Part shown: positions 52,660 through 56,753 of the stretch, piece after piece
Layout of the letters: each line of letters opens with the position of its first letter
Position numbering within the stretch: position 1 is the stretch's first letter
NCBI GenBank assembly: GCA_017302795.1
Contig: JAFLCB010000005.1
Span: forward strand, 124,001 to 188,000
Direction: 5' to 3'
From: Deltaproteobacteria bacterium
GTDB lineage: Bacteria > Bdellovibrionota > Bdellovibrionia > Bdellovibrionales > JAMPXM01
DNA length: 64,000 nt
Program-made: the position numbers and the translations under genes
The notes under the pieces: generated by a model
The model's input: the letters and a program-made list of their open reading frames with translations, nothing else
Told to the model about the DNA's origin: nothing
Databases searched by the model: none

Positions 52660-52795
52660 TTATTTCCCTAAGCCTTCGACATTGCAGCAAATGATGTAAA
52701 AGAAAGCCTGCTGCTATCTAGCGGATCGGTTTGCCGTCGGCAAGAAGCCGCCGGGCTTTGTTTACATTAAGACCGTTTTTTACTACGGTTTTCGT

Positions 52796-53782
52796 ATGGG
52801 ATTCATCTCGCCCACTGACATTGAAGCTCTTGCAAAAGTGCTCGCCCCTTACATCACGAAAACTCCCCTTGTCACTGGGGGCGGCGCCCTACGTCAGCTG
52901 TTTTTAAAGCGGGAAGACCTTCAATTGACCAACAGTTTTACCGTGCGTGCTGCTCTTGGAATTTTGCTGGGTCTGTCAGAAGAGCAAAAGAGCCGCGGCA
53001 TGATTTTGACGACCCCTGGAAATCTCGGCTGGGGCCTCGTATACGGGCTTCAGTGCCTGAACTTAAAAATGCGGCTGACGATCGTCATCCCGAAAGATGC
53101 AGTAGAAGCGAAACGGCTTGGCCTTCTGCAGGCCTTACACCCGGGAATTTCAGTTGTCCAAGACGGATTTGGCGAGCTTGAGCGCTATGAAATCGTCCGG
53201 AAAATTGCTCTCCGCGACGGGCTCGAGGAGCTTCAGCTAAAGAATCGAAAAGATGAGGTTGCCGCCAAAGGATCGATTGCCATTGAAATTCTCGAACAAC
53301 TTTCATTTGTAGCTGGCGCAGATCACAAGCGACCTCTTCGATTTTTCTGCCCCATCGGGTCGGGCGCCTTGGCGGCAGGCTGTGCGATTGTGCTTAAGAA
53401 CGCGATGGGCGAATGCGTAAAAATCATCGGCGCGGAACCTGCGTCGGCCAATGACTTTGCCCTGCTCTTTCATCAACGTACAGTCAGCACCGCCGCTGCG
53501 CCAATGAGCGTTGCGGACTCGCTAAGATCGCCTAAGGTTCGGGACGAGTATCGATCGACACTGCTCGCACTGATGGATGATGTCGTTGAGGTAAGCGAAA
53601 CAGAAATCATAGAAGCGATGCAACTTCTCAAGGAATCCAGTCAAATCGTGTCCGAGCCTTCATCTGCAATTTCTGTCGCCGGCTATTTGAAAAATCCGGC
53701 TTTTGATGGAAATTCTGTCGCCCTGTTGACGGCTTCGAACGTAGACACTGACCGCTTCCAGTTTCTAAAGTCAGCGCTCTGA
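52796..53782 (+). CDS. Threonine-dehydratase-like (PLP fold type II) protein lacking the PLP lysine
   Basis: A 328-residue homologue of serine/threonine dehydratases. The fold is clear: FLKREDLQLTNSFTVRAA in place of LKREDLQ..SFKxRGA, TTPGNLGWG in place of SSGNHGQG, a glycine loop PIGSGALAAG and the C-terminal VSEPSSAISVAGYL. The Schiff-base lysine is Thr49 (codon ACC at 52940-52942), so the normal dehydratase reaction is not possible. It either binds a ligand without covalent PLP or has another activity. No good ribosome site precedes the ATG; a short hairpin lies there. The 3' end overlaps the convergent acetyltransferase gene by 12 bases. Confidence 0.82.
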   Translation: MGFISPTDIEALAKVLAPYITKTPLVTGGGALRQLFLKREDLQLTNSFTVRAALGILLGLSEEQKSRGMILTTPGNLGWGLVYGLQCLNLKMRLTIVIPKDAVEAKRLGLLQALHPGISVVQDGFGELERYEIVRKIALRDGLEELQLKNRKDEVAAKGSIAIEILEQLSFVAGADHKRPLRFFCPIGSGALAAGCAIVLKNAMGECVKIIGAEPASANDFALLFHQRTVSTAAAPMSVADSLRSPKVRDEYRSTLLALMDDVVEVSETEIIEAMQLLKESSQIVSEPSSAISVAGYLKNPAFDGNSVALLTASNVDTDRFQFLKSAL

Positions 53783-54307
53783 ATCGCCGTCTCGAACGAT
53801 CTCTTTGTAACAAAGGATAATCTTCTCCGTGCTCTTCGCAGTCTCGATAGTTTGACCAGGAATTACTCGGCAGCGCCAGTCAAAGCCAGGTACCGGCCTT
53901 AAGTTCCAAGTCTTCGAGAACAACTGAAGTGATTTTTCGTCATAGTAGCCGACATACTTATTCCAAGGTTCCGGCCACAAACCGAGTGCAAAATCATAAA
54001 GGCCAGTTCCTACACCAGTGCCCCGCGCCTCCGGTAAAACGTAAACGCCGCGAACTCGAATAGTGGTGTCTGAAATATTATATACAAGCGACCAACCCAC
54101 CTGTTTGCCATCGATCGAAGCGGCAATTGGAAACTGCAACGTCCGACGAAATACCTCGGATCCCACATACTGAACCATTCCGTATGGATTATTGATAATT
54201 GGAATCCAATGATAGTCCTCGATCCATTTCCACATCGGCCGGACACATTTTCGCCAATTTTCAAATGTAATGACTGAATATTCCACCTTTTTAATAGACG
54301 AGGCCAT
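53771..54307 (-). CDS. GNAT-family N-acetyltransferase
   Basis: A 178-residue protein with the acetyl-CoA site of GNAT enzymes: VRGVYVLPEARGTGVGTGLY (about residues 85-104), where RGTGVG matches the Q/RxxGxG/A motif A, followed by the helix YDFALGLWPEP and a YVGYYDEKSLQLFSKTWNLR motif B-like end. The target is unknown. It overlaps the upstream gene by 17 bases, so the two are coupled, and converges on the dehydratase-like gene. Confidence 0.78.
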   Translation of the reverse strand: MASSIKKVEYSVITFENWRKCVRPMWKWIEDYHWIPIINNPYGMVQYVGSEVFRRTLQFPIAASIDGKQVGWSLVYNISDTTIRVRGVYVLPEARGTGVGTGLYDFALGLWPEPWNKYVGYYDEKSLQLFSKTWNLRPVPGFDWRCRVIPGQTIETAKSTEKIILCYKEIVRDGDSER

Positions 54308-55358
54308 AGTGTCCCTCGTTCATCCGGTGAAAGCGGTCATCACAAATTTGCCAATTCTTTGCCATTATCGCGAGGGAGGTATGCCAAGCCTCCCGCGCCT
54401 TCGGAGATTTTGCACTCAGTCGCCCCTGAAAGCTTAAAAGTTTTTCTCGAAACGGCTCGGACAGCTTTGTGCTCGGAAGCTCGGCCCCTTGACCGCCACA
54501 TAGAAGGCCCTGCACATAGGCCGGCAAAATTTCTGGCGTCGAACGAAAAAAGTCGACCACTCCAGATCGCCCCAAGACTTCCAAATATCTCGCGGCATCC
54601 ATGTCCGACTCCAGCTCTTCGAGGCACCAGTTGACCGGGCCAATCGATTTGTCCTGCACGAGATCAAAATTCAAATCAATGATTCGAGGCAAGTGGTTCT
54701 CGAAAATGAACATCCCTCGCTGCTTTGTCGCTATGAAAACGGAAAAAAGAATTAATGGATCTGTGCCACGAATCTGTGCGGAACTTCGGTCGAGGAAGAC
54801 TTCAAATTCATCCCAAGTGAAACTCTCGGCCTTTAGAGCGAAACCCAGACCTCGCAGCTCACCCAAAATTTCCGACGGAACTTCTGCTGGAGTTTCTGGT
54901 CGCTCCGCCAAGCAAGGCACCACGACCGTTAGCTTATCTCTGCAGTCTGCAAAGGCTTGCAAAACTAGCTGGCAATACGCACTGCCAGTGTAAACCAACC
55001 TAAGTTCGCCGTGTCTTTGTACAGCCTCATTTGCCGCCAAACTGGATTCATCGAGTATTGGTCCGACCGCTCTGCGAGGCCGGCCATGCTCCGCCCAGTA
55101 CATGCAGGTTGAGCTTTCTCTAAACCGCCCGACCTCGCCGTTATAGCCGAACTTAAAATGACCGCCGAAGGAAAAATCGGCCTGAATACTGGTCGACTCG
55201 TTGCGCATCGGCGCACGTGGGAAACCAGCGGCCGGATTTTTTAAAGTGTTCGTGCCATTCAATCCGTAAATGGCAATCTGCTCTGCAATGAAACGGTCGG
55301 CGCGCAGCTTGTCAGGGCCCGAATTGGCATTTGCGGTACTTGTGCTTTTTGAGTCCAA
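54291..55358 (-). CDS. Unknown protein, possibly a degenerate PP-loop/amidotransferase-like fold
   Basis: A 355-residue soluble protein starting at TTG (AAAGG upstream; ATG at 55208 would shorten it by 50 residues). No family recognised with confidence. The stretch ELRLVYTGSAYCQLVLQAF (about residues 118-136), a strand followed by a Gly/Ser turn and a helix, and the next strand KLTVVVPCLAE recall the beginning of PP-loop ATP pyrophosphatases, but SGGxDS is reduced to TGSAYC. It is coupled to the GNAT gene by a 17-base overlap and divergent from the multi-span membrane protein. The function remains open. Confidence 0.62.
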   Translation of the reverse strand: MDSKSTSTANANSGPDKLRADRFIAEQIAIYGLNGTNTLKNPAAGFPRAPMRNESTSIQADFSFGGHFKFGYNGEVGRFRESSTCMYWAEHGRPRRAVGPILDESSLAANEAVQRHGELRLVYTGSAYCQLVLQAFADCRDKLTVVVPCLAERPETPAEVPSEILGELRGLGFALKAESFTWDEFEVFLDRSSAQIRGTDPLILFSVFIATKQRGMFIFENHLPRIIDLNFDLVQDKSIGPVNWCLEELESDMDAARYLEVLGRSGVVDFFRSTPEILPAYVQGLLCGGQGAELPSTKLSEPFREKLLSFQGRLSAKSPKAREAWHTSLAIMAKNWQICDDRFHRMNEGHYGLVY

Positions 55359-55405
55359 AACTTTTGCCTTTCATCCCGATCCAGCTTCCTGTCATAATTG
55401 AACCA

Positions 55406-56539
55406 ATGCAGTCTTGTTTGTCGAGCCGCTTCTTTCTGTTTTTCCCAATGCCGCTTATTGGTTTTCAGATCGCGACAATGTTCGTGGCACCAGGCTCATT
55501 AAACTTCATGGCTGTCGACTTCATTGGCGAGACGTTCTTTCTTGGCTCGACACATAGTTACCTTTCTATTGGTATTTTTCTTCTCCCCGCTGCAGCAAAC
55601 TGGTTCCATCAAAGGGCGGAGGCAAAGCGACAATCCATTGGCGTTTGGACCCTCGCGTTGGGCCTCCTGGCGTTTTCGTTTTTCATGTGGCGTGCGCTGT
55701 CCGGGGGGCGCCCAAGCAGCGTTCGGCCGATCATCATTCTCATCACGGATCTGATGTTCACAGCACTTCTGCTGCATCATACTTTGTGGCAGGTAAAAGG
55801 CCTATCGATGATCTATCGGCTCCAGCCCACAGCAAATTTAGCAAGCAATGTGCAATTCCACTCTGCACAGTTTCCGAAAAACCCAAGATGGCAGGTCTTT
55901 GAAAACGAACATATTCCGTTTTATCTGCTTCTTTCCCTTGTTCTCTGTGTTCCGGCGGCTTCAACCGCGAAAGCATTGTTTCCAACGCTCGCGAGTATTT
56001 TGAACCTAAGAGCCATCGGACTTGTTTCTTCTGCATCGATGTTTTTTATCGCGGCTTTAATCATAGTTCCCGACCTGCTGAACGGCGATACCCAGTTTCG
56101 CAAACGCGCATGGTTCAATTTGCGTCTCTCGTCATGGGCCCTAATTCCTATTTCCAAATACGGCTTCATTATTTCTTCTGTCATTCATGGAATCGAATAC
56201 TTAGTTGTTAACCTTCAAATTTTCTCGAAAGAGAATAGAGAGTTCGCCGTCAAAATGATCGTCAGCTTGCTTGCAATCGCGATCAGCGTTCGCATCTGCA
56301 TCTGGGGATTCAGAAGCTATTCACCAGGTCAAGCGCCACTGTTTTTAACTATTTTGAGTTCGGCCGGCCTCACGTTGGGACTTGCGCACTACTATTGGGA
56401 TCGAAAACTGTTCGCAATGCGAGAGCCCGAAACGCGGGCCTTCACAGGCTCGAGACTCTTGGGCTCAGCAAGCCACGATCACTTTCAGCAGCCATTGGAA
56501 ATAAAAAGAAGAAAAAATGGTGGTCAGAGACGGGATTGA
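55406..56539 (+). CDS. Multi-span membrane protein with histidine motifs, function unknown
   Basis: A 377-residue protein with nine to eleven hydrophobic segments. Histidines lie in or beside membrane segments: LGSTHSYLSIG, LLLHHTLWQVKG, FENEHIPFYL, SVIHGIEYLVV and LGLAHYYWDRKLFAMREPE. The last pattern, a membrane-edge His-Tyr followed by D, aromatic and R-rich residues, resembles a group of bacterial membrane proteins of unknown function. Clustered membrane histidines suggest metal or heme binding (inference). ATG at 55406 chosen by length of the first segment; no clear ribosome site. The last 22 bases run into the tRNA-Phe gene on the other strand. Confidence 0.68.
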   Translation: MQSCLSSRFFLFFPMPLIGFQIATMFVAPGSLNFMAVDFIGETFFLGSTHSYLSIGIFLLPAAANWFHQRAEAKRQSIGVWTLALGLLAFSFFMWRALSGGRPSSVRPIIILITDLMFTALLLHHTLWQVKGLSMIYRLQPTANLASNVQFHSAQFPKNPRWQVFENEHIPFYLLLSLVLCVPAASTAKALFPTLASILNLRAIGLVSSASMFFIAALIIVPDLLNGDTQFRKRAWFNLRLSSWALIPISKYGFIISSVIHGIEYLVVNLQIFSKENREFAVKMIVSLLAIAISVRICIWGFRSYSPGQAPLFLTILSSAGLTLGLAHYYWDRKLFAMREPETRAFTGSRLLGSASHDHFQQPLEIKRRKNGGQRRD

Positions 56540-56593
56540 ACCGCCGACACATGGATTTTCAGTCCATTGCTCTACCAGCTGAGCTACCTGACC
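56518..56593 (-). tRNA. tRNA-Phe (GAA)
   Basis: A 76-base cloverleaf on the minus strand: acceptor GGTCAGG pairs with TCTGACC (one G-U), D-arm GCTCAGCTGGTAGAGC, anticodon stem ATGGA/TCCAT with loop CTGAAAA (anticodon GAA), T-arm GGCGG-TTCAATC-CCGTC. The 3' CCA is encoded (56518-56520) and six T residues follow. Confidence 0.97.
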
Positions 56594-56618
56594 ACTGGAG
56601 AGATTCAAGAGAGAAAGG

Positions 56619-56646
56619 GGTATCAAGCCGCTAGCAACCCTGTCAA
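56619..56646 (-). promoter_or_regulatory. Promoter of tRNA-Phe
   Basis: On the minus strand a perfect -35 TTGACA (56641-56646) is followed after 16 bases by GATACC (56619-56624), about 25 bases before the tRNA 5' end. The -10 is weak, which is usual for stringent-controlled tRNA promoters only in part. Confidence 0.5.
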
Positions 56647-56753
56647 ATATCGATTTCGGACCCTTCAAAAAAGGCCAAAAACACTAGGAATTTCCAGTTT
56701 TAAGACAGACCTAGCCGTAGGAATGCTACTTCCAACGGCAAAACCCCGCAGAT

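Follow-up and report, generated by a model that had tools for sequence, protein, structure and literature searches.

A PALP-fold gene in a variable spot beside DusB

The window, that is, the whole 64,000-nt stretch of DNA analysed here, contains a gene for a PALP-fold protein without the PLP lysine, which we call P0001 (52796-53782, + strand). The gene lies in a spot of about 4.1 kb (52660-56753) between a TypA-DusB block and a CGL-CBS block. Both blocks are syntenic across the family, and the stretch between them varies in length and gene content, measuring about 340 bp in genome G001 and 540 bp in G012, and holding other genes in G004 (2.9 kb) and G002 (5.7 kb). Within the spot, P0001 adjoins DusB and is followed by a GNAT-like gene (53771-54307, − strand), which like P0001 is missing from the rest of the family; this gene was rejected as an operon mate owing to its convergent orientation and its 12-bp overlap with the 3′ end of P0001. 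The remainder is occupied by ORFs of 355 aa (54291-55358, − strand) and 402 aa (55331-56539, + strand), neither of which has a Pfam match. Nothing in the neighbourhood indicates a partner or ligand, the bhcC aldolase and bhcD iminosuccinate reductase genes are absent beside P0001, whose neighbours are DusB, the GNAT-like gene and the two ORFs, and no strong ribosome-binding site or promoter was seen. In two congeners, G002 and G004, the same spot carries related radical-SAM-like proteins (541 aa, L081, and 533 aa, L082, respectively) and GNAT-like proteins adjoining DusB. In G002 there is additionally an ORF resembling metallo-beta-lactamases and a GNAT-like protein extended by a further C-terminal domain; all these names were given by eye. 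Genes appear to turn over at the CGL-DusB spot.

The P0001 frame runs intact from ATG to TGA over 328 codons. Its product matches the Pfam PALP profile (PF00291) with 147.3 bits and an E value of 8e-43 against a curated cut-off of 35 bits, a score that leaves no room for chance homology, and is a member of the PALP superfamily of fold type II PLP enzymes. By contrast, all NCBIfam equivalog scores fall far below their respective cut-offs, including those for BhcB (NF045641; 130.4 versus 550 bits), the best match, threo-3-hydroxyaspartate ammonia-lyase (123 versus 452 bits), the second, and the threonine ammonia-lyases IlvA/TdcB (TIGR01127, 105.2 versus 378.75 bits; PRK08638, 100.6 versus 453 bits). 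The closest solved structures are those of a Thermus threonine deaminase and of serine racemases, with 22-27% identity. The best explanation is that P0001 is related to the short, metal-dependent enzymes of the serine racemase/hydroxyaspartate dehydratase type and has diverged from them. We keep this statement at the level of motifs and have dropped an exact placement in the tree, since the grouping of P0001 with serine racemase/BhcB types in an 8-row set (96% SH-aLRT) was no longer resolved when more short homologs were added. In both trees the terminal branch of P0001 is very long (5.34 against a median of 0.41 in the first, and 3.31 against 0.59 in the second).

The lysine is lost jointly with most of the surrounding signature

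The family segment [GA][SA]FKxRGA, which bears the Schiff-base lysine, reads NSFTVRAA in P0001 (residues 46-53, 52931-52954, + strand). Specifically, Thr49 (codon ACC, 52940-52942) occupies the position of the PLP lysine, and the segment also carries the changes G46N and G52A. Going from Lys to Thr at this codon takes two base changes from either AAA or AAG, so a single miscalled base does not explain Thr49. In human serine racemase, Lys56 is the PLP lysine, Ser84 is the second catalytic base, and Gln89 belongs to a network joining PLP O3′ to the ATP site (PMC6333871). As demonstrated by the alignment, the counterpart of Lys56 is Thr49, and the asparagine loop of P0001 (TTPGNLGWG, residues 72-80, 53009-53035, + strand) has Pro74 in place of Ser84 (SSGNHG in the human enzyme). 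Within the GNHxQ loop, His87 and Gln89 are replaced by Leu77 and Trp79, and Asn86 is preserved as Asn76.

The remaining loops of the pocket are altered as well. The phosphate loop, GGGG[LM] in the family, reads GSGAL (residues 188-192, 53357-53371, + strand); the tetra-glycine stretch 185-188 of human serine racemase corresponds to G188-S189-G190-A191, so that two of the four glycines are replaced (G189S and G191A). The family motif ADG is ADS (residues 240-242, 53513-53521, + strand), with Ser242 for Gly, and the SxGN motif (313-316 in human serine racemase; SGGN in the family) is TASN (residues 312-315, 53729-53740, + strand), in which Thr312 equals the Thr found at this position in BhcB (ITGGN). 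Altogether, P0001 departs from 19 of the 42 family columns with a conservation of 95% or more across the 47 homologs aligned with it, and each homolog taken in turn departs from 0-9. Against the 22 closest short homologs of the serine racemase type, it breaks 15 of 39 near-invariant columns, where the others break 0-5. The changes fall mostly on the PLP and substrate loops.

The sequence-only reading had given the coordinates, the frame with its 328 codons, the ACC codon and the segments NSFTVRAA, TPGNLGWG and EPSSA as they are found here. Its further claim that the glycine phosphate loop is kept holds for G188 and G190 and fails for the loop as a whole. It had also overlooked Pro74, Leu77, Trp79, the ADS motif at 242 and the TASN motif at 312-315, together with the retained segment EPASAND (residues 214-220). 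With the phosphate loop altered and these additional pocket losses, the case for lost PLP-aldimine chemistry, which that reading had put forward, is stronger than before and well supported. Judged from the joint loss of the lysine, the Ser84 counterpart, the His/Gln pair and the glycines, it is very unlikely that P0001 acts on amino acids through an internal aldimine of lysine and PLP.

A putative metal site and the core are retained

Mammalian serine racemase has an Mg/Ca site beside the phosphate loop, formed by Glu210, the backbone carbonyl of Ala214, and Asp216 (PMC6333871). The segment EPASAND of P0001 (residues 214-220, 53435-53455, + strand) is its putative counterpart, in which E214, A218 and D220 match E210, A214 and D216. 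The C-terminal segment EPSSA (residues 287-291, 53654-53668, + strand) is likewise present, as the sequence-only reading had said. Core positions K38, E40, Q43, F48, R51, A53, G75, N76, P99, K106, G117, E164, G195, E287 and N315 are unchanged.

The AlphaFold2 model of P0001, built from a nine-row alignment, has a pLDDT of 81.5 and a pTM of 0.83. It matches TdcB (2gn2) with a VIA Z of 34.8 over 310 residues at an r.m.s.d. of 2.9, and S. pombe serine racemase (1v71) with a VIA Z of 33.9; as the alignment consists of lysine-bearing homologs, this match to the two-domain fold type II serves as a consistency check. A fold search of BFVD with the model brought up a single clear match of PALP type, with two others that were weaker. 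The control, a serine-racemase-type protein that has the lysine (L077), was modelled with the same nine sequences and reached a pLDDT of 92.4. The segment 230-248 of P0001, which includes the ADS motif, has a pLDDT of about 40, against 84-94 in the matching segment of the control. This low-confidence segment fits a remodelled pocket, or may instead stem from how far P0001 has diverged from the sequences in its alignment.

So far P0001 is known from one genome

We found no homolog of P0001 closer than about 35% identity in the host genus, family, order (141 genomes) or phylum (369 genomes). Sampling the phyla of three other genomes (398, 395 and 400 genomes) yielded a best match with 35% identity and 118 bits, and no relative above 35% was found among about 1,560 genomes in total. 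Eighteen homologs from the three-phyla samples were inspected, of which 17 have Lys and one has Arg in an otherwise normal site. Plasmid and phage records hold homologs of at most about 32% identity, peptide patterns retrieved no second P0001-type protein from genome and viral contigs, and a homolog search of viral contigs with the alignment gave no match. The host genome has five other PALP proteins, including its own IlvA (G000:C4), and lacks a close paralog of P0001 that bears the lysine. At present, P0001 is a singleton of one genome. The clade sharing the Lys-to-Thr change that the sequence-only reading had proposed to look for is absent from the genus, family, order, phylum, three-phyla samples, plasmids and phages. 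For its other suggestion, that close relatives might carry Lys, no close homolog was found, and a simple strain mutation or an error in base calling is improbable.

A DNA pattern for lysine-less motifs was run over genome contigs representing about 85,000 species, possibly excluding the window's own genome, and it covers residues other than Asn, Asp, Glu, Gln, His and Tyr at the lysine position in motifs that are not strongly diverged. It gave nine matches, of which five are due to chance and four are of PALP type, and none of these four is a relative of P0001. In place of the lysine, the four have Met in Anammoxibacter, Arg in one Anaerolineales and one Rhizobium sequence, and Thr in a Dehalococcoidia sequence. 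Lysine-less fold type II PLP proteins therefore seem rare in the subgroup of P0001.

In Candidatus Anammoxibacter (JAIQZO010000024.1; L063:4837-6039), a full-length IlvA-type protein has Met for Lys (TGSFMVRGA) and ANHAR for GNHAQ; it is the sole strong IlvA-type match in that genome, and its counterpart in a related genome (L088), 63% identical, has Lys. Anaerolineales entries (L067 / L101) and one from Rhizobium calliandrae (L071, truncated) have Arg for Lys within otherwise ordinary PALP motifs, and could be errors or recent losses. A Dehalococcoidia sequence (L069:6430) has Thr for Lys in an otherwise normal IlvA-type motif, and its frame degenerates downstream.

Selection or decay

The GC content of P0001 by codon position is 0.61/0.41/0.54. 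Both this pattern and the overall GC resemble those of neighbouring genes, and a recent horizontal transfer marked by foreign composition was rejected on this ground. The several length changes relative to homologs are all in frame. When the P0001 gene was evolved neutrally in simulation, no stop arose in 0.15% of runs at 45% of residues changed, a level set by the share of near-invariant columns that P0001 breaks. The frame stayed open in 4% of runs at 20% changed and in 20% at 10% changed. The sequence-only expectation that a decayed copy would show stops is borne out for extensive change and holds less firmly for slight change.

The simplest account of these data would be a long lysine-less history under selection for a folded protein. 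As none of the genomes searched holds an ortholog, selection is something that we infer, and the "selected pseudoenzyme" of the sequence-only reading stands as the best reading, with no clade sharing the change. The main rival is relaxed constraint or recent inactivation, in which a divergent accessory dehydratase has lost its lysine and is decaying but has not yet acquired a stop. The survival of one frame in five at 10% changed makes late inactivation of an enzyme that had already diverged a serious alternative, and the singleton status within a variable spot, the many changed invariant positions and the very long branch agree with it. On the other hand, 328 codons are open with all length changes in frame, the codon-position composition is normal, the metal site and core positions are retained, and many pocket loops are altered together. 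On balance we regard this rival as unlikely, while taking it seriously.

A probable pseudoenzyme, proposed to act by binding

We hold with moderate confidence that P0001 is a folded pseudoenzyme, which forms no PLP internal aldimine, carries out no two-base alpha-carbon chemistry, and works through the binding of a ligand or partner. This reading is favoured by Thr49, the 19 of 42 broken columns, the retained metal triad and core, the predicted fold, the coding-type GC, the 0.15% of simulated frames that stay open, and the long branches. Counted against it are the lack of an ortholog, the pLDDT of 81.5 against 92.4 in the control, the missing strong ribosome-binding site or promoter, and a neighbourhood without a hint of a partner. 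P0001 is probably an old pseudoenzyme, stabilised by metal, whose role would lie in ligand binding or regulation. In such a protein, expression and folding would persist despite the lost aldimine and two-base chemistry, and the Mg/Ca site, if occupied, would hold the two-domain fold together. The pocket between the domains may take a small ligand, such as a small anion or PLP, either free or as an adduct, and the protein would work by binding this ligand or a partner protein, not by catalysis. A Lys-to-Thr mutant engineered in tryptophan synthase beta (K87T, fold type II) has reportedly been crystallised with its active sites occupied by ligands (Rhee 1997, as cited in PMC9512447), which makes free PLP or a PLP adduct a possible ligand of P0001. 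The mutant reportedly holds PLP-amino acid adducts. More speculatively, and rather improbably in our judgement, a serine-racemase-type pocket and metal site may have shed PLP chemistry and become a sensor, a partner-binding module or a metal-based enzyme, carried as accessory cargo of one lineage.

An active enzyme with altered chemistry, using PLP or PMP non-covalently or no PLP at all, and with another residue for acid-base work, has a slim chance of being correct. It would draw on the persistence of Asn76, of G188 and G190, and of Thr312 in the SxGN-type motif, on the ligand-bound crystals of the tryptophan synthase mutant, and on the acknowledged rare cases of PLP-family proteins that do not bind PLP via lysine (PMC2748086). 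However, with Pro in place of the Ser84 counterpart and GNHxQ rebuilt, P0001 lacks both catalytic bases and much of the carboxylate site, and offers no candidate replacement base; for the "new non-PLP activity" of the sequence-only reading there is no positive evidence. A sequencing or assembly artefact or contamination, conceivable in a draft genome of 39 contigs with no second copy of P0001, is scarcely credible given the two base changes at the lysine codon, upwards of a dozen further changes in signature positions, a composition that matches the genome, and the syntenic conserved genes that flank P0001 on a 294-kb contig.

A natural member of the superfamily that lacks the lysine and retains the metal site would reveal how the scaffold can be used without its cofactor. 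For P0001, the automatic label "threonine/serine dehydratase" would be incorrect.

Comparison with known systems

The serine racemases of human, S. pombe and Dictyostelium (PDB 1v71, 3l6b and 6lut) share with P0001 the whole-length fold, a size of about 330 aa without an ACT domain and, to judge by matching residues, the E-A-D metal site (EPASAND), Asn76, EPSSA and a SxGN-type C-terminal motif. P0001 differs from them by T49 for Lys, P74 for Ser84, a GSGA loop, and GNLGW for GNHxQ, at 22-27% identity. BhcB and the threo-3-hydroxyaspartate dehydratases give the top NCBIfam scores (130 and 123 bits), and BhcB has the EPxxAxD motif and the Thr at position 312 in common with P0001; P0001, however, lies far below the cut-offs (550 and 452 bits), and lacks both the Lys and bhcC/bhcD neighbours. 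IlvA and TdcB have the superfamily and fold in common with P0001 (VIA Z 31-35), whereas those of the host order have a C-terminal extension and the Lys, and no EPxxAxD site.

The Anammoxibacter protein is, like P0001, a lysine-less superfamily member with an intact frame. Unlike P0001, it has Met for Lys, an intact GGGGL and an IlvA-like C-terminal extension, and since its 63%-identical relative keeps Lys, its loss is independent of that in P0001. The literature surveyed, largely that outside subscription papers, describes no lysine-less threonine dehydratase or serine racemase pseudoenzyme. PLP-fold pseudoenzymes as such are represented by the ornithine decarboxylase antizyme inhibitors (PMC2748086), which retain a PLP-enzyme fold in the genome without enzyme activity, as P0001 would do; they differ in belonging to another PLP fold type, in having a known partner, and in being conserved family-wide.
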